Virus record (IMG/VR): IMGVR_UViG_3300007734_000558 | Coordinates: 1 to 30,506 of that record | Direction: 5' to 3' (one strand) | DNA: 30,506 nt | DNA from: a virus | Part shown: positions 1,196-26,565 of the stretch, piece by piece | How the letters are laid out: the number at the start of each line of letters is the position of its first letter | Numbering within the stretch: position 1 is the first letter of the stretch | Position numbers and translations under genes: made by a program | Notes under the pieces: model-generated | Seen by the model: only the letters and a program-made list of their open reading frames with translations | Told to the model about the DNA's origin: nothing | Database searches by the model: none

Positions 1196-2242
1196 CTATA
1201 TAAGTTTCGGCTGAATTGCGCTTAATCGTTTGTGCGAAATTTCGACATATTCCGGATTTAATTCCGTGCCGATATAATCGCGATTATTCGACATGGCAAC
1301 TAATCCAGTTGTGCCAGAACCACTAAACGGATCAAAGACTGTGCCTAATTCCGGACATCCGGCCAGTATACAAGGTTCTATCAGTTTGACCGGATAGGTG
1401 GCAAAATGCGCTTCGGCATATGGTTTTGTGCTGACTGTCCAAACACTGCGTTTGTTGCGTGTTTCTTTCGGAATATAAACACGTCCGTTATCATTCAGCA
1501 TTGTGCCATCACTGTGTTCTTTGGCATCTCTGAATTTTCTAGGATTGCCCATATTGACAACTGATTCTTTGATGGCTTCGGCATCATAGTAGTAATGTTC
1601 ATTTTTGCTGAGCAAGAAAATATACTCATGCGATTTAGTGCAACGGTCAGTCACTGATTCCGGCATTGGGTTTGGTTTGTGCCAGATGATATCTTGACGC
1701 AAATACCAGCCATCGGCTTGCAGTGCAAACGCCACTCGCCAAGGGATTCCAATTAAATCTTTAGACTTTAACCCTTCAGAGATGCGAGTAACAATTCCCT
1801 CACGAGGATTACCATAGCCAGCCCGTCCGTTGTTGCTAGCACGAGAATTATGACCAGCGTAGCTGTCCCCAAGGTTTAGCCATAATGTTCCGTCGTCGCG
1901 AAGTATGCGATGCACTGCGCGAAATACTTCTACCAGTTTGTCAACGTATGCTTGTGGCAATTCTTCTAGACCGATTTGCTGGTCGATGCGCATTGCTCCA
2001 CATTTGCCACAAACATCTTTAAATAATTTCTTGTAACCCTCCTGATTTCGGTCGGCACGTTCGCCACGATGATTATTAAGAGATTCAACGTGATTGCATT
2101 CATCATTACCCCCTTGCCATGATCCCGTGCCATAATCTCTCAATCCGTAGTATGGTGGCGATGTGACCACGCAATGCACTGATTGCGCAGGCATTGTATT
2201 CATTCCTTCGATACAATCGCCTTGAATGATTTCATATTGCAT
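1196..2242 (-). CDS. DNA methyltransferase (N6-adenine or N4-cytosine, beta-type motif order)
   Basis: A 348-aa site-specific DNA methylase. Catalytic motif IV is TSPPY (about residues 27-31) and the AdoMet-binding motif I is DPFSGSGTT (from about 304). Catalytic motif first and AdoMet motif last is the beta-class order. An insert after motif IV carries C49, H51, C78 and C81 and may bind zinc. The ATG at 2242 is chosen because AGGAG stands 8 bases before it; a longer TTG start to 2260 would cover that site. The gene is clearly more AT-rich than the structural genes (one hand-counted 60-base line is 35% GC, against 65% in the capsid gene), which suggests acquisition. It probably protects phage DNA from host restriction. 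Target sequence unknown. Confidence 0.88.
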   Translation of the reverse strand: MQYEIIQGDCIEGMNTMPAQSVHCVVTSPPYYGLRDYGTGSWQGGNDECNHVESLNNHRGERADRNQEGYKKLFKDVCGKCGAMRIDQQIGLEELPQAYVDKLVEVFRAVHRILRDDGTLWLNLGDSYAGHNSRASNNGRAGYGNPREGIVTRISEGLKSKDLIGIPWRVAFALQADGWYLRQDIIWHKPNPMPESVTDRCTKSHEYIFLLSKNEHYYYDAEAIKESVVNMGNPRKFRDAKEHSDGTMLNDNGRVYIPKETRNKRSVWTVSTKPYAEAHFATYPVKLIEPCILAGCPELGTVFDPFSGSGTTGLVAMSNNRDYIGTELNPEYVEISHKRLSAIQPKLI

Positions 2243-2301
2243 AATTTGTCTCCTATACAAATGCGGAAGCCGGGGTTATTGAGAATGTTACTTCGTGGCA
2301 T
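2200..2301 (-). pseudogene. 33-codon leader ORF resembling the start of the four-HTH gene
   Basis: An ATG at 2299-2301 follows GGAGAGG and opens a 33-residue frame that overlaps the methyltransferase start and stops at 2200. Its first residues, MPRSNI...FRICIGDK, match the N-terminus of the 587-1180 product, MPRSDI...FRVAIADK, at most aligned positions. I read it as the degenerate N-terminal remnant of a second copy of that gene, with the methyltransferase occupying the rest. It could also act as a leader cistron coupling translation to the methyltransferase. Confidence 0.45.
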
Positions 2302-3621: not shown

Positions 3622-3853
3622 GATGCGTCTCGCTTTCTACTTTGTATTGTTCTTTGCTTGGGCGTGTGTGAAATTCCATGTACATGATGGCGCGGCGAAT
3701 GACTTCGGACGTCGACACGACATAGCCCCGATTGTCCGCGGTGAGTCTCGCTTTGAGTTCCTCGAGGCGGTCGCTGGCTTCCGGTGTCATGATGTGACAG
3801 ACTTGCGTGGTCCCCGTGCTAGTGTTGCGTAATTGGCGACTGATGGGTGGCAT
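3611..3853 (-). CDS. Small RHH-like regulator
   Basis: An 80-aa protein whose C-terminal half reads VSTSEVIRRAIMYMEFHT, typical of the second part of a CopG/RHH fold (short strand, then STSEVIRRA helix). An N-terminal helix, DRLEELKARLTADN, precedes it. The start at 3853 has AGGAGA at a good distance. Its end overlaps the SSB-like gene start, so the two are translated together. As a likely DNA-binding dimer it could control the repeated promoters near 4200 and 6990; that link is inference. Confidence 0.65.
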   Translation of the reverse strand: MPPISRQLRNTSTGTTQVCHIMTPEASDRLEELKARLTADNRGYVVSTSEVIRRAIMYMEFHTRPSKEQYKVESETHHEL

Positions 3854-4157: not shown

Positions 4158-4197
4158 GGTGTGTCTCGCTTTCGTGTATTGCTTCCTAACTGACACC

Positions 4198-4226
4198 AGT
4201 ATATACCTTGTCAATTACTTTGTCAA
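4198..4226 (-). promoter_or_regulatory. Near-consensus sigma-70-type promoter, copy A
   Basis: On the minus strand: -35 TTGACA (4221-4226), exactly 17 bases, -10 TATACT (4198-4203). Transcription would start near 4191, leaving a 5' leader of about 34 bases. A second TTGACA lies 12 bases after the first, inside the spacer, and could be part of an operator. About 88 bp from the start codon through this promoter are repeated with two mismatches at 6933-7020. Confidence 0.85.
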
Positions 4227-4259: not shown

Positions 4260-4475
4260 TTACAGCGTCTCACCCTGCTGTCGTCGCAATTCACGGCTGA
4301 TTGCGTCGCTCACGACGTCGTAGGCGTGGTCGAGCGTGGTCACGGCGGTGACCTTCTCGGTCTTGTCGATGTGGTCATAGATAACCACTTCCATCGCCCA
4401 CGTCGAGATGCGATGCACCCAGATTTCGGTTTTTCCCACTTGGCGGTACATGATTTGATTGCGTGGTGGTGTCAT
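4260..4475 (-). CDS. Hypothetical protein, 71 aa
   Basis: Not recognised. A small protein beginning MTPPRNQIMYRQVGKTEIW, with an alternating pattern that looks like beta strands (EIWVHRISTWAMEVVIY) and then a helix (LDHAYDVVSDAISRELRRQ). The ATG at 4475 has AAAGGAGA 9 bases upstream and is preferred over the longer frame to 4526, which would run into the hairpin at 4523. It is the last gene before the promoter at 4198-4226. Confidence 0.7.
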   Translation of the reverse strand: MTPPRNQIMYRQVGKTEIWVHRISTWAMEVVIYDHIDKTEKVTAVTTLDHAYDVVSDAISRELRRQQGETL

Positions 4476-4522
4476 GGTATACTCTCCTTTAATTGGCGAT
4501 TTGCCAAGACTCAAAACGTAAT

Positions 4523-4564
4523 GCACGAAGCCCGCACGGTGTCACAACCATGCGGGCTTTGTGC
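4523..4564. terminator. Strong intergenic hairpin, terminator-like
   Basis: Inverted repeat with 14-base arms (GCACGAAGCCCGCA / TGCGGGCTTTGTGC; one position not Watson-Crick) and a 14-base loop. It lies between the membrane-protein gene (4567-4743) and the 71-aa gene. The T-richer side follows the plus-strand reading (GGGCTTTGTGCGTTTATT). It could therefore stop antisense transcripts better than the sense ones, or act as an attenuator. A related stem occurs at 23662-23700. Confidence 0.5.
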
Positions 4565-4566
4565 GT

Positions 4567-4743
4567 TTATTCCTCATCCATCATATACAGCGCGGCATCC
4601 CATCCGTCCGCGAAGGCGTCGCCGAGTTTGCGATGGTACCACTCGGCGAATTGACGTTCGTACCATGACCAGCACCACGTCACGGTCACCGACACGACGC
4701 AGATAAGCGCCGTGATGATGAGGGCAGCGAAGACCGTGCTCAT
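4567..4743 (-). CDS. Small single-span membrane protein, 58 aa
   Basis: Starts MSTVFAALIITALICVVSV, a clear N-terminal transmembrane segment, followed by an aromatic and charged stretch (WCWSWYERQFAEWYHRK) and an acidic end (MMDEE). The ATG overlaps the stop of the upstream 51-aa gene (ATGA), so the two are coupled. Earlier in-frame starts, to 5013, would overlap two other good genes and are rejected. Function unknown; with its neighbour it forms a pair of small membrane proteins within an early gene block, perhaps acting at the host membrane. It is distant from the lysis cassette. Confidence 0.65.
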   Translation of the reverse strand: MSTVFAALIITALICVVSVTVTWCWSWYERQFAEWYHRKLGDAFADGWDAALYMMDEE

Positions 4744-5900: not shown

Positions 5901-6461
5901 TTAATTACTGACGACTGCATTTTTTAATTCGTAAACCCAACGGTTTTTGTCGGCTTTACTTTGCACCGCAGAATTACGTGCACGAGTTTCCGTGTTCCAC
6001 GGTCTGTACTTTGTAGTGCTTTCCAGCTTCCAATTGCCGGCAGCGTAGATTGTACCGGTATGCACCTCGGTATCTTGGTATGAAACTAGTTTTACGATGT
6101 CGGTTAAATTCTTGCGTATGTTTTTTATCATCTTTCCAAGCATCCAAGTCGCCGTATATTTTGGCGCATCCGGTGCAATGGCAAGGCGCCGAAGTTCAAG
6201 CATTTGAAACCCGTTGGTCATGCGATTTGCCACCACTGGCGTCGTCCACATAGCGACGGCGTATATATTTAACTCATACACAGCGGCATAAAATACCGAG
6301 TGCTTATTACGCAACAAGTTCCCCATGTTTGTTTTTGGCAGGCGTGAATGCCATAACTCGTTGTAATACATTGCTGTATTAACATTGCTTTCGAGACAAA
6401 TCATAATTCTACAAGACTTTGGTGGGGTTCGAATAAACATATAATCCATTGACTCGCTCAT
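5901..6461 (-). CDS. mom: Mom-like GNAT-fold DNA adenine modification protein
   Basis: A 186-aa protein resembling phage Mu Mom and related GNAT-fold proteins. Key segments are WHSRLPKTNMG (about 37-47), LELRRLAIAPDAP (88-100), a helix WMLGKMIKNIRKN, SYQD (127-130) and HTGTIYAAGNWK (134-145), which occur in this order in the family. Mu Mom adds a carbamoylmethyl group to adenines and shields DNA from many restriction enzymes. The start at 6461 has GAGGTGG upstream; a GTG at 6470 is less likely. It is AT-rich (one hand-counted line is 28% GC), unlike its neighbours. It lies between the start and the 3' fragment of a duplicated resident gene, behind a 9-codon leader. Family call from motifs; the exact chemistry is unproven. 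Confidence 0.75.
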   Translation of the reverse strand: MSESMDYMFIRTPPKSCRIMICLESNVNTAMYYNELWHSRLPKTNMGNLLRNKHSVFYAAVYELNIYAVAMWTTPVVANRMTNGFQMLELRRLAIAPDAPKYTATWMLGKMIKNIRKNLTDIVKLVSYQDTEVHTGTIYAAGNWKLESTTKYRPWNTETRARNSAVQSKADKNRWVYELKNAVVSN

Positions 6462-6490
6462 CAAACCCACCTCAAGTCAAAATCGGGCAT
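6461..6490 (-). promoter_or_regulatory. Nine-codon leader ORF coupled to the Mom-like gene
   Basis: ATG at 6488-6490 opens MPDFDLRWV and stops with a TGA that overlaps the Mom-like ATG (TGATG). Upstream is the same GAAAGCGAGACACACC leader that precedes the genes at 4157 and 6935. Ribosomes would finish the short peptide and restart at the Mom-like gene. Its Shine-Dalgarno sequence GAGGTGG lies inside the leader ORF. Confidence 0.55.
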
Positions 6491-6518
6491 GGTGTGTCTC
6501 GCTTTCGTGTATTGTCTC

Positions 6519-6557: not shown

Positions 6558-6935
6558 TTAGCGATTGGCGAGTTCCTGTGCCGCTGCTTCGGTGATGCGT
6601 TGGTCGACCTTGGTGTTGCGGAGGCTGTGCGTGGTCACGATGTCGATCAGCTTGGCGTCGGTGTAGGTCATCATGATCCCGAAGACGTTTTCCTCGGTGA
6701 CCACTTCGGCGATGACGTCGGGAGCGACTTCGGTGACCATGAAGTGGTTGCGGTGAATGTGACCCTCCCAGCCTTTGCTGAATACCGGTGCGCCGTACTT
6801 GGCGGTGAGGCTGGCGCACTTGGCGATGGTTGCCATGTTGCCGCTGATTTTCTTCATTGCGGCGTATGCGCTTTTGGCTTCGACGATCCGTGGTGCTTCG
6901 TTCTGGTAGGTGAGTTTTTTGATTTGGAACTTCAT
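6558..6935 (-). CDS. Hypothetical early protein, 125 aa
   Basis: Not recognised. Begins MKFQIKKLTYQNEAPRIVEAKSAYAAMKKISGN and continues with a middle beta-rich part (GHIHRNHFMVTEVAPDV) and an acidic helical end. It is the first gene behind the second copy of the strong promoter, so it is likely expressed early and highly. The start at 6935 is chosen because the in-frame extension to 6992 begins upstream of the predicted transcription start. It has the repeated GAAAGCGAGAC leader in place of a good AGGAG site. Confidence 0.7.
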   Translation of the reverse strand: MKFQIKKLTYQNEAPRIVEAKSAYAAMKKISGNMATIAKCASLTAKYGAPVFSKGWEGHIHRNHFMVTEVAPDVIAEVVTEENVFGIMMTYTDAKLIDIVTTHSLRNTKVDQRITEAAAQELANR

Positions 6936-6975
6936 GGTGTGTCTCGCTTTCGTGTATTGCTTCCTAACTGACACC

Positions 6976-7004
6976 AGTATATACCTTGTCAATTACCTTG
7001 TCAA
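6976..7004 (-). promoter_or_regulatory. Near-consensus sigma-70-type promoter, copy B
   Basis: Minus strand: -35 TTGACA (6999-7004), 17-base spacer, -10 TATACT (6976-6981). It is almost identical to copy A at 4198-4226, including a second TTGACA in the spacer. It should drive the 125-aa gene, the Mom-like gene and the small genes below it. Confidence 0.85.
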
Positions 7005-7062
7005 GTAGTAATATACATGAGTTTCATTACAATTAGATGACAGGAATATGATACGCAAATCG

Positions 7063-7071
7063 TGGTATAAT
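7063..7071 (+). promoter_or_regulatory. Plus-strand extended -10 promoter P1
   Basis: TGGTATAAT on the plus strand, opposite to every gene in the genome. A transcript would start near 7078 and meet the 24-bp hairpin at 7130-7184 after about 50 bases. No convincing -35. No long plus-strand reading frame follows, so a short RNA is the likely product if the site is used. Confidence 0.45.
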
Positions 7072-7129
7072 GCAGTCAAGCCAACCGGTTTCACTGTTAT
7101 CGCTTTGCGGAGAAACTGGGGAATCGCTT

Positions 7130-7184
7130 ATAACTGCATCAATCCCCGCTACGACTTAAACGTAGCGGGGATTGATGCAGTTAT
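7130..7184. repeat. Perfect 24-bp inverted repeat (hairpin 1)
   Basis: Arms at 7130-7153 and 7161-7184 are perfectly complementary, with a 7-base loop (ACTTAAA). The inner stem CCCCGCTACG/CGTAGCGGGG is shared with the hairpin at 7260-7300. It lies in the roughly 280-bp gap between the tail operon and the early promoter. Possible late-operon terminator, end of a plus-strand RNA, or recognition structure. Confidence 0.85.
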
Positions 7185-7192
7185 GGTATAAT
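7184..7192 (+). promoter_or_regulatory. Plus-strand extended -10 promoter P2
   Basis: A second TGGTATAAT on the plus strand, whose first base is the last base of hairpin 1. The sequence after it (CAAGCCA) also follows P1 closely. The expected start point, near 7199, falls on the ATG of a 29-codon plus-strand ORF (7199-7288, MQQRGSSDFLGRDPWF...) that runs into hairpin 2. A short non-coding RNA or a leaderless peptide are both possible. Confidence 0.4.
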
Positions 7193-7259
7193 CAAGCCAT
7201 GCAACAACGGGGGTCTAGTGATTTTTTAGGTCGAGATCCTTGGTTTCAAGTAGTTGCCA

Positions 7260-7300
7260 CACCCAGCCCCGCTACGTTCAAGTCGTAGCGGGGCTGGGTG
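7260..7300. repeat. Perfect 17-bp inverted repeat (hairpin 2)
   Basis: Arms at 7260-7276 and 7284-7300 are perfectly complementary, with a 7-base loop (TTCAAGT). Its core stem is the same as in hairpin 1. It lies 23 bases beyond the stop of the last tail gene, so on the minus strand it is well placed to end the late transcript, although no T-run follows. Confidence 0.8.
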
Positions 7301-7322
7301 CGTCGTTGTATTGACTTCGGGA

Positions 7323-7646
7323 TTATGCGGGCGGGATTGGCCAATTGACCGCACCGAGCCAGCCCTGCGCTTGCACTGCTTCCGGCGTGTCACGTAGTGA
7401 CTGACGATATACCCGCCACCGTTGCACCGATGCCGGACTGAGTGGTACGTCGGGAAGTTGCGTCCAATCGCACGCAGTCAGGCGACGATCACGCTCATCT
7501 CGTAGCGCCGTCATGGCTTCGGGCTCGGTGTATGGTTTGTCTATAACCTCGTCGCCCTCCGGTGGCTGCGGATATTCCACGCCGTAGTCGTCATAGTACG
7601 CAATCCGGATTAACTCGGGGTTGTATATGCGGTTTATAGTGGTCAT
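7323..7646 (-). CDS. Phage tail assembly chaperone-like protein (Phage_tail_APC type)
   Basis: A 107-aa protein. Its C-terminal half, LRDERDRRLTACDWTQLPDVPLS...WRVYRQSLRDTP, carries the signature of the short phage tail-assembly-chaperone or fibre-end family: a helix ending in CDWTQ, then an RxYRQxLRD helix and an ending in NWP. In other phages this domain follows tail-fibre genes. Here it is likewise the last gene of the tail operon, overlapping the fibre gene by ATGA (7643-7646). Confidence 0.75.
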   Translation of the reverse strand: MTTINRIYNPELIRIAYYDDYGVEYPQPPEGDEVIDKPYTEPEAMTALRDERDRRLTACDWTQLPDVPLSPASVQRWRVYRQSLRDTPEAVQAQGWLGAVNWPIPPA

Positions 7647-23624: not shown

Positions 23625-23658
23625 CCCTACTTCTATTGTCAGGGGGCTGTCAATAGCG
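23625..23658. repeat. 34-bp direct repeat with internal dyad, copy 2
   Basis: Identical to 16726-16759. Here it is non-coding, 14 bases before the endolysin ATG. Its last bases abut the strong Shine-Dalgarno (AGTAGGGAGGA). The dyad could fold in the RNA next to the ribosome site or bind a protein in DNA. Confidence 0.75.
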
Positions 23659-23661
23659 CAC

Positions 23662-23700
23662 GACGAAGCCCCCACGTGTCTCCCCCGTGAGGGCTTTGTC
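23662..23700. promoter_or_regulatory. Leader hairpin upstream of the endolysin gene (attenuator-like)
   Basis: Arms of 15 bases (GACGAAGCCCCCACG / CGTGAGGGCTTTGTC, two non-Watson-Crick positions) with a 9-base loop. It sits between the extended -10 promoter at 23730-23738 and the endolysin gene. The AAGCCC/GGGCTT core matches the hairpin at 4523-4564. No T-run follows, so attenuation or RNA stability is as likely as termination. Confidence 0.5.
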
Positions 23701-23729
23701 ATGTATGGGATGAAGAACCATGCCCGCTT

Positions 23730-23738
23730 ATTATAGCA
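23730..23738 (-). promoter_or_regulatory. Extended -10 promoter for the late (lysis/structural) operon
   Basis: The minus strand reads TGCTATAAT (TGnTATAAT), overlapping the stop codon of the methyltransferase gene. Transcription would begin near 23723 and run through the leader hairpin and 34-bp repeat into lysis, packaging and structural genes. No clear -35. Confidence 0.55.
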
Positions 23739-25341
23739 TGCCCTCCAGCGGAGATTCGACGGCGTAGTGGGCGATGCGCTTCTGTGCAATCGCTACGTAT
23801 TCCGGCGTGATATCAATGCCCACAAAGTCGAATCCCTCGCGGACGGCGGCGCATCCCGTCGAACCTGAGCCCATAAACGGGTCGAGTACTTTGCCACCCT
23901 TGGGTGTCACGAGGCGGACTAAGTAGCGCATGAGGGCGAGGGGTTTGACGGTGGGGTGATGGTTGGCACGGAGGGGGTGATTCGTTGGGCGGTCTTCCCG
24001 ATATTCCGCCCCACTCATCGCCCCTGCCTTGACCCACTCCTCGTAGTACAACCCCGCCTCCCGCTCCGCTTTCGACGCTTTAGCGACGTAGAAAAAGCGT
24101 GAGGCACCACCGGAGCCTGGATGGTTTAATACAAGTTTTTCTCGTAGTTCCCCAACTTTGTTCCACCCCTTAAAATCCCTTGTCTTAAATATCCCGCCAT
24201 GATAATTTCGCTCTCCACTCTGCTCATCCAAGACCTGCGCCGCTTCTTCGTCGAAGATGACGTTGGCGGGCCAGCGTCCGGCGGTGGGCTTGTTTGCACT
24301 GATGTCTACTGCGTGCGTACCGCCTACCGATGATTTGCCGGTACCAAACGATGCGCTCCCTTTGCTGATGTTTGTGCGCACCGGTGCATCCCACGCTTTT
24401 TCGTAGCCATCAAACGCCGCAATCCTCGTCCCGTCGATGTTTAACGCACCGACACCCCACGCTATCACGTTGTCTGCCACCGTGCCACAAAGCGGCTTCC
24501 GTGCGAGGACGGCGGGCTCGTGAGCTGGTTTGAGCGCTGTGCCCCAGCCCTGCCATTGTTTTGCGATGTCGGTGGCGGGGGCGGTGATGGTGACTTGATG
24601 CTTTGCGGATATTTGCAGAGGGATGCCGATGCGTGCTTTCTTTGTGTCTTGCATCGTCCGCACGTCGTCCACCTCATACTCGCCAAACATATCCTCACGC
24701 TTCTCGGTGACGAAGGTGCGCTCTCCCCACGCCTTGCCCGGCTTGCCTTTGTTTCCGTTCAATGTCCAAATCAGCGTCCGCACGTCGTCGGGCACGTCGT
24801 CCAGCGTCAAGCCGAAGAGGTCGAGTAGTACGGGTATCTGGTCAAGCGTTGGCACCGATGGCTGTGACGCTTGCGACGTCCAATGCCCTGCCATGCCGTT
24901 CATACCGAAGGCGTCGTCTATCGTGGCGTTACTCAGTCCGGCATTGTCACGGGCTTGGCGAATCCACGCCGTGACCTCCAGCGTCTGATCACGGTCGTCG
25001 CGTTGCTTATCCATCGCTTTCGATACGTCTAAACTTTTCGGGAATCCGTTGGCATAAATCCATTGTATCTGGTCTCGTATCTCGAAGCCTGCATCTTCGA
25101 TAGCCACGGCTAAACGGTGGTATGTCCGTGAGCCACCGAATGCAATGAGATGCCCACCTGGCTTCAGCACCCGCAGGCACTGTTGCCATACCGTCACGTC
25201 GTAGGCGATACCGGAGTTATCCCACGCTTTGCCCATGAAGCCGAGTTCATACGGCGGATCGCACACGATGCTGTCAATGCTTGCATCGTCAAGCGTTGAT
25301 AGGACGGTGCGACAATCGCCGAGGTGTAGGGTGTGTGTCAT
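23731..25341 (-). CDS. DNA methyltransferase with inserted HTH-like domain (paralogue 1)
   Basis: A 536-aa methylase with catalytic DPPY (CDPPYELGFMGKAWD, about 28-42) and C-terminal AdoMet motif DPFMGSGSTG. Between them, at about 120-230, is an insert with WIRQARDNAGLSNATIDDAFGMNGMAGHWTS...LTLDDVPDDV, an HTH-like module seen in some phage methylases, which may help choose the target. It is nearly identical to the next gene upstream at both ends but differs in the centre. Probable role: masking restriction sites. GGTGGAG stands before the ATG. The stop overlaps the late promoter. Confidence 0.87.
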   Translation of the reverse strand: MTHTLHLGDCRTVLSTLDDASIDSIVCDPPYELGFMGKAWDNSGIAYDVTVWQQCLRVLKPGGHLIAFGGSRTYHRLAVAIEDAGFEIRDQIQWIYANGFPKSLDVSKAMDKQRDDRDQTLEVTAWIRQARDNAGLSNATIDDAFGMNGMAGHWTSQASQPSVPTLDQIPVLLDLFGLTLDDVPDDVRTLIWTLNGNKGKPGKAWGERTFVTEKREDMFGEYEVDDVRTMQDTKKARIGIPLQISAKHQVTITAPATDIAKQWQGWGTALKPAHEPAVLARKPLCGTVADNVIAWGVGALNIDGTRIAAFDGYEKAWDAPVRTNISKGSASFGTGKSSVGGTHAVDISANKPTAGRWPANVIFDEEAAQVLDEQSGERNYHGGIFKTRDFKGWNKVGELREKLVLNHPGSGGASRFFYVAKASKAEREAGLYYEEWVKAGAMSGAEYREDRPTNHPLRANHHPTVKPLALMRYLVRLVTPKGGKVLDPFMGSGSTGCAAVREGFDFVGIDITPEYVAIAQKRIAHYAVESPLEGML

Positions 25342-25359: not shown

Positions 25360-26565
25360 CTATAATTCACTTTGCGTGTCCTCTTCTTGAAATACCATTC
25401 CCTCCAGCGGAGATTCGACGGCGTAGTGGGCTATGCGCTTCTGTGCAATGGCGACGTACTCCGGCGTAATATCAATACCGACAAAGTCGCACCCCTCAAG
25501 AACTGCGGCGCATCCGGTGGAGCCGGAGCCCATAAACAGGTCTAACACTTTGCCACCCTTGGGTGTCACGAGGCGGACAAGGTAGCGCATGAGGGCGAGG
25601 GGTTTGACAGTGGGGTGATGGTTGGCCCGGGGTTTGTTGCTTCGGTTCCTCGGATTGTCTCCGCCAGCGCCGTCGTCTTTGATGCGGTCTGCGCTTCGCA
25701 TTGGTTCCACCCAATCCAACCCCGCCTCCCGCTCCGCCTTCGACGCTTTGGCGACGAAGAAAAAGCGTGACGGCTCACCAAGTAGTAGCGACGCCTCCTC
25801 GTCGAAGATGACGTTGGCGGGCCAGCGTCCGGGCGAATTAAGTTTTTCACCAATTTTAGGGTACTGAATCCCCGTTTTCCCAAATTGATTGCCATGTGCT
25901 TCCGATAAGTCTTTGATAGTCGTCGTGGTCTGATGCGTCCCCACCCTCGTCCCGTCGATGTTTAACGCACCGACACCCCACGCTGTCACGTTGTCTGCCA
26001 CTGTGCCCCGCAGTGGCTTCCGTGCCAATACCGCAGGCTCGTGCGCAGGCTTCAGCGCAGTGCCCCAACCCTGCCATTGTTTTGCGAGGTCGGTGGCGGG
26101 GGTTTCATTATCCACAAAAATCCCGCCATCACGCTGTGCTTTATCAATCCACGGACGATGCTCTAATGCGCCGGTGGTTCGGTGCGGAGTAATAGGCTTC
26201 CACCGCTTTTCCCGCACCGCTCCTGCCTGCTTATCCATCGCCTTGCTCACGTCTAAACTTTTCGGGAATCCGCTTCCATAAATCCACTGTATCTGGTCAC
26301 GTATCTCGAAGCCCGCATCTTCGATAGCCACGGCTAAACGGTGGTACGTTCGTGAGCCACCAAACGCTACGAGGTGCCCGCCGGGCTTCAGCACACGCAG
26401 GCACTGCCGCCACACCGTCACGTCGTAGGCAATACCACTGTTATCCCACGCTTTGCCCATGAAACCAAGCTCATACGGCGGATCGCATACAATGGCGTCT
26501 ATGCTGGCATCGTCAAGCGTGGCCAGCACGGTGCGACAATCGCCGAGGTGTAGGGTGTGTGTCAT
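25360..26565 (-). CDS. DNA methyltransferase (paralogue 2)
   Basis: A 401-aa methylase sharing the first 110 or so residues and the last 80 or so almost exactly with paralogue 1, including DPPYELGFMGKAWD. It has a shorter, different central region (GGIFVDNETPATD, GTHQTTTTIKDLSEAHGNQ) and lacks the HTH insert. Motif I reads DLFMGSGSTG where DPF is expected; the Pro-to-Leu change could weaken AdoMet binding. The different centres suggest different target sequences after a tandem duplication. The ATG overlaps the dCTP deaminase stop. Confidence 0.85.
   Translation of the reverse strand: MTHTLHLGDCRTVLATLDDASIDAIVCDPPYELGFMGKAWDNSGIAYDVTVWRQCLRVLKPGGHLVAFGGSRTYHRLAVAIEDAGFEIRDQIQWIYGSGFPKSLDVSKAMDKQAGAVREKRWKPITPHRTTGALEHRPWIDKAQRDGGIFVDNETPATDLAKQWQGWGTALKPAHEPAVLARKPLRGTVADNVTAWGVGALNIDGTRVGTHQTTTTIKDLSEAHGNQFGKTGIQYPKIGEKLNSPGRWPANVIFDEEASLLLGEPSRFFFVAKASKAEREAGLDWVEPMRSADRIKDDGAGGDNPRNRSNKPRANHHPTVKPLALMRYLVRLVTPKGGKVLDLFMGSGSTGCAAVLEGCDFVGIDITPEYVAIAQKRIAHYAVESPLEGMVFQEEDTQSEL

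Follow-up and report, generated by a model that had tools for sequence, protein, structure and literature searches.

A conserved promoter–hairpin unit antisense to the genes at a late/early operon border as a probable small-RNA gene of an uncultured phage lineage

Do two neighboring promoter–hairpin units, which lie on the plus strand between two blocks of phage genes, encode small RNAs, or do their hairpins serve the genes around them? All likely genes surrounding the units in the window (the whole stretch of DNA analyzed, 30,506 nucleotides) are located on the minus strand, so that the units indeed oppose their neighbors, as claimed in the original prediction. The gene order on this strand is primase, methyltransferases, endolysin, terminase, portal, capsid, tail, and the tail-fibre assembly chaperone ending at 7323, which shares 72–84% identity with its counterparts in related contigs. 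The units are situated beyond the chaperone and are followed by small genes of the early type, a Mom-like gene, and a methyltransferase; the labels "early" and "late" are derived from gene content. Searches for relatives of the gene next to the units and of the Mom-like gene found none. The same was true for a host search via prophage relatives of the terminase in two scans of bacterial and archaeal genomes. The Mom-like DNA modification protein (window 5901–6470) is encoded in a 30-kb genome together with three DNA methyltransferases (phrog_67; minus strand, window 1196–2260, 23731–25341, and 25360–26565). The features of the gene border are compiled in Table 1.

Table 1. Positions of the promoter–hairpin units and of neighboring or related features in the window
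Feature	Positions	Strand	Details
Tail-fibre assembly chaperone (final gene in the late tail operon)	7323..7646	-	phrog_4912, E 2e-12; convergent with the units
Unit 2 SL2	7258..7302	+	17 perfect pairs (19 allowing one mismatch), 7-nt loop TTCAAGT; without U-tract
Unit 2 predicted small RNA	7199..7312	+	from the fold; includes possible closing stem P1 7199-7205 / 7305-7311
Unit 2 extended -10 TGGTATAAT	7184..7192	+	from sequence and motif count
Unit 1 SL2	7130..7184	+	24-bp perfect stem, 7-nt loop ACTTAAA; without U-tract
Unit 1 SL1	7085..7119	+	loop includes UCGCUUU (7100-7106); from fold and covariation of the homologous helix
Unit 1 predicted small RNA	7078..7184	+	predicted to start about 7 nt past the -10 and to end at the hairpin; from structure and homology
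Unit 1 extended -10 TGGTATAAT	7063..7071	+	from sequence; TGNTATAAT invariant in 16 aligned units
Divergent promoter TTGACA-17-TATACT of the next (early-type) operon	6976..7004	-	near copy at 4198-4226
First gene of the early-type operon	6558..6935	-	leader carries AAAGCGA (6944-6950), complementary to the SL1 loop
Related, weaker promoter–hairpin unit	4455..4571	+	TTGATT-17-TATACT, extended -10 TGGTATACT, short stem-loop TTGGCGATTTGCCAA, hairpin 4528-4559

Two extended −10 elements of the sequence TGGTATAAT had been predicted on the plus strand at 7063 and 7184, and both were found there. The second one starts with the final base of hairpin 1 (7184), which bears out the proposed junction of the two units. 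The motif TGNTATAAT occurs five times in the 30.5-kb window compared with an expected 0.44 occurrences, a count reached by none of 100 shuffled sequences. It did not vary in any of the 16 aligned units, and the −10 motif of the units is readable as a promoter on the plus strand only. In the related contigs, the antisense promoter also has a TTGACA box, but the spacing to the −10 element is short (14–15 nt), which suggests that the extended −10 element is probably the part that matters. The antisense promoter of the related contig L027 and the promoter of its next operon (TTGACA ... TGGTATACT) point away from each other, with repeats in between.

Each −10 element is followed by a long perfect hairpin with a 7-base loop, as the original prediction had it (7130–7184 and 7258–7302). 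Both hairpins have the core CCCCGCTACG/CGTAGCGGGG in common and are the two longest of the window. They are 83% alike as inverted copies and 71% alike as direct copies; the inverted likeness is higher because the loops are inverted (ACTTAAA and TTCAAGT). On both strands inspected, a U-tract was absent after either hairpin. A terminator scan of the window listed neither of them, and the combination of a GC-rich hairpin and a U-tract that characterizes intrinsic (Rho-independent) terminators was not found. Termination at these hairpins is therefore uncertain.

The conservation of the locus was analyzed in related contigs. A scan with the minor tail protein yielded 17 loci and a scan with the chaperone 16, which overlapped the first set and added one contig. 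One promoter–hairpin unit was present at the same place and in the same orientation, antisense to the genes, in all 14 related contigs whose sequence continues beyond the chaperone; at the two chaperone loci without a unit, the contig breaks off only a few bases from the chaperone match. Two units in tandem were seen in the window alone, and each of the 14 relatives carries a single unit. Two further scans for distant relatives outside this lineage returned the same contigs only. The part preceding the hairpin resembles that of L027 in unit 1 (z 11.7) and, to a lesser degree, in unit 2 (z 6.6), but the 3′ flank of unit 2, GGTGCGTCGTTGT / GGTGCGTTGGTGT, is common with the relatives. The simplest reading of these similarities is that the pair arose by a tandem duplication with subsequent divergence. 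In contrast to the invariant TGNTATAAT, four-fold synonymous sites of a nearby tail gene share only 45–58% identity when the window is set against four relatives, and 48–53% when L027 is set against L040/L041. A candidate unit in L049, which was found by the promoter pattern, was rejected, as it looks like a gene start.

The predicted RNA folds into a stem-loop (SL1) and, at its 3′ side, the long hairpin (SL2); a closing stem (P1) may be present in addition. Compared with shuffled sequences, the folding z-scores were −10.7 for the RNA of unit 1 and −8.0 for that of unit 2, and in 15 of the 16 units, the SL1 region was more stable as the plus strand than as the complementary strand. An RNA model built without unit 2 (R1) matched unit 2 with 49 bits (E 1e-8), partly via the shared hairpin. 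Unit 1 scored 77 bits with the RNA model, but it belongs to the model's own alignment. Unit 2 has kept the promoter and the 3′ hairpin, without the conserved SL1 loop.

Covariation was analyzed in an alignment of 14 units with 39 pairs in three helices, which were 96.5% paired; units 1 and 2 of the window are referred to as w1 and w2. Changes on both sides were found in 11 of the 39 pairs compared with 3.8 in shuffled alignments, and none of 500 shuffles gave a value as high. SL1 alone contains four pairs with double changes, a number reached in two of 500 shuffles. In P1, no pair showed a double change and the stem is broken in L032, L040, and w1, for which reason it is regarded as a possible stem. 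The SL2 loop is inverted in w1 relative to w2 and in L038 relative to the remaining GCTACG units; the inner stem of SL2 is inverted in L030 relative to L031/L036. Such inversions, affecting either the loop or the inner stem of a given hairpin, were seen among close relatives (L030/L036, L037/L038, w1/w2). Template switching during replication leaves loop inversions and homogenized arms (PMC8794818, PMC8604942), and the SL2 loop inversions suggest that it has acted here. Since this process can give rise to paired changes in SL2 even when selection is absent, the covariation of SL2 was discounted in part, which leaves SL1 and the promoter as the safer evidence. The covariation of the stems anticipated in the original prediction was thus detected for SL1, whereas signs of template switching confound it in the long hairpins. 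As the relatives represent one lineage, the number of independent changes is small. These observations suggest that perfectly paired hairpins in phages may be maintained by template switching and that their covariation should be read with care.

Taken together, the locus is probably a small-RNA gene of this phage lineage, tandemly duplicated in the window genome, with the RNA as the functional product. The promoter, its orientation, the SL1 structure, and purifying selection are well supported; transcription and the 3′ end of the RNA are what we infer from the sequence. The plus-strand extended −10 promoter, which points away from that of the following minus-strand operon, would give rise to a structured non-coding RNA of approximately 105–120 nt. 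This RNA would consist of a 5′ segment, SL1 with its conserved loop, the linker GCUAAAUAACUGCAC, and SL2, which would end or protect the RNA. The core of the original proposal, an RNA of about 100–120 nt running from a plus-strand promoter to the hairpin, is well supported by the single unit of every relative reaching this far, by the covariation of SL1, and by its higher stability on the plus strand; the twin arrangement is a trait of the window only.

SL1 is most constant in its loop, UCGCUUU, which unit 1 and most of the relatives possess. The loop is exactly complementary to AAAGCGA, a heptamer that is more frequent than any other 7-mer in 157 distinct gene leaders and, in the window, lies shortly before the start codons of four genes in the early region (6944–6950, 6499–6505, 4166–4172, and 3630–3636); the early-gene leader sequence is GAAAGCGAGACACACCATG. 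The same four genes have the leader motif GAAAGCGAGAC in front of the ATG, where it replaces a ribosome site of the AGGAG type. Only 0.4% of the antisense-strand windows match as many leaders of the window as the SL1 loop does. In the relatives, this value is 0.6–3.3% (L027, L028, L037, and L038) or 21–24%, at which level the complementarity is not unusual (L041 and L056). In L032, the loop heptamer carries a point change and matches no leader, and L040 has lost the SL1 loop but kept the leader motif. Duplex energies calculated for the whole loop did not separate the leaders from the background. Given the complementarity of the loop to the most frequent ribosome-site 7-mer, the leading mechanism, albeit a weakly supported one, is repression of early translation in trans: SL1 would pair with AAAGCGA beside the start codons and might thereby lower translation of the early genes. 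In view of the mixed leader matches among the relatives and the energies that do not single out the leaders, this tentative mechanism is treated as a lead rather than an established result. A broader and more speculative picture is that of a new small-RNA family with a loop mirroring the ribosome-site motif of the early genes, in which one RNA or a tandem pair could switch off the early-gene set and similar antisense units could be placed at other operon ends.

The main rival to a trans-acting RNA, although rather unlikely, is a role in cis, in which the units insulate the late/early border and no distant RNA target exists. The convergent promoter and the bidirectional hairpins would block read-through from the late operon, or the antisense RNA would pair with the 3′ end of the late mRNA and direct it to RNase III. 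This reading accounts for the position of the units, which immediately follow the last tail gene and precede a divergent promoter, as well as for the second plus-strand unit at another gene junction (4455–4571). SL2 is symmetric and able to work on both strands, and there are precedents for antisense transcripts in STnc6030 (PMC7067206) and OOP (PMC5869508). However, neither the conserved loop nor the covariation of SL1 is required for a role in cis, and the predicted RNA ends short of the chaperone coding region. A reduced form of this idea, with hairpins that are only minus-strand terminators or 3′ stabilizers of the late operon and plus-strand promoters that occur by chance, also fits the location directly behind the last tail gene (7323), and hairpins of the GC-rich type are found at other gene ends in these phages. 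It is nevertheless very improbable in view of the invariant antisense −10 element, the conserved SL1 region, and the strand bias of SL1; the minus strand lacks a U-tract, too.

A function at the DNA level, as a replication origin or a packaging or recombination site formed by cruciform hairpins, would be in line with the long perfect palindromes and with the loop inversions between relatives, which are expected upon strand switching. It appears very improbable, since promoter conservation and the SL1 strand bias would be left unexplained and comparable hairpins exist elsewhere in these genomes. The idea that a small peptide is produced from a short plus-strand reading frame, with its ATG inside TATAATG, is largely refuted and hardly credible. 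Several units do contain open frames of 20–41 codons, but the frame is shifted by single-base indels from one relative to another, and L031, L040, L056, and w2 lack the ATG. An ATG within the −10 element would, moreover, precede the transcript start. A peptide-coding unit was consequently rejected, and the small-RNA gene is the preferred reading.

Phage small RNAs are known from few model phages. A search of the window against Rfam 15 gave no match at the gathering level; at E-values of up to 1, sub-threshold chance matches to microRNAs or snoRNAs appeared in L027, L029, L040, and L056; the window and L036 showed no such matches. Similar DNA was not found in the deposited phage collection, and a search of IMG/VR for the exact hairpin core enclosing a 7-nt loop was negative. 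Within this genome, the query matched only its own place and the two hairpins, unlike interspersed repeats of the REPIN/BIME type, which have many copies spread over the genome. The OOP RNA of phage lambda comprises 77 nt, has its own promoter, and overlaps cII in antisense orientation (PMC12197685, PMC5869508). The RNA predicted here on the basis of sequence and conservation resembles OOP as a short phage RNA with its own promoter opposite to the neighboring genes, but no sequence relation was found and its hairpin lacks a U-tract. If the RNA ends at SL2, its end (about 7312) lies before the chaperone stop at 7323, and in L027, the stop (7866) and the start of SL2 (7926) are likewise separated. 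In contrast to OOP, the predicted RNA thus overlaps no coding gene and was therefore not classified as an OOP-type cis-antisense RNA. The antisense RNA STnc6030 of prophage BTP1 mediates superinfection exclusion (PMC7067206) and is similar in being transcribed against late tail genes, but it is long (786 nt) and antisense to coding regions, whereas the predicted RNA is short and structured. The sar RNA of P22 (68/69 nt) pairs with phage mRNA and inhibits protein synthesis (PMC12197685). A mode of action of the same type is proposed here; while the target of sar, ant, is known by experiment, the putative target here is a 7-base match only. With OOP, sar, and STnc6030 as the nearest known kinds, the unit is best described as a putative new RNA family of a known kind. 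The comparative data make a case for a conserved small RNA in a lineage of uncultured phages, for which a promoter and a structure are defined and a target motif can be put to the test.

The weaker unit at 4455–4571 is conserved in L027, L028, L030, L036, L037, and L038. Its stem-loop TTGGCGATTTGCCAA is invariant, and the hairpin is replaced or inverted between relatives. Units of this type (e.g., L027 9447–9540, L037 7006–7108, and L038 9517–9600) contain the constant element AATTGGCGATTTGCCAAGACTCAAA, are antisense, and overlap the start of the following gene. A sense-strand extended −10 element was detected at the end of a methyltransferase gene (window 23650–23738, minus strand), with a hairpin 28–33 nt later, before the endolysin and late genes. 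The arrangement resembles a late promoter with an immediate terminator-like hairpin; it has counterparts in L006 (6867), L007 (7872), L009 (336), and L010 (7362), in which GCATGGT is conserved. A 15-bp hairpin, perfect or with one mismatch, is located directly 5′ of a sense-strand TGNTATAAT promoter in L006 (592–649), L007 (2374–2431), and L010 (571–628).
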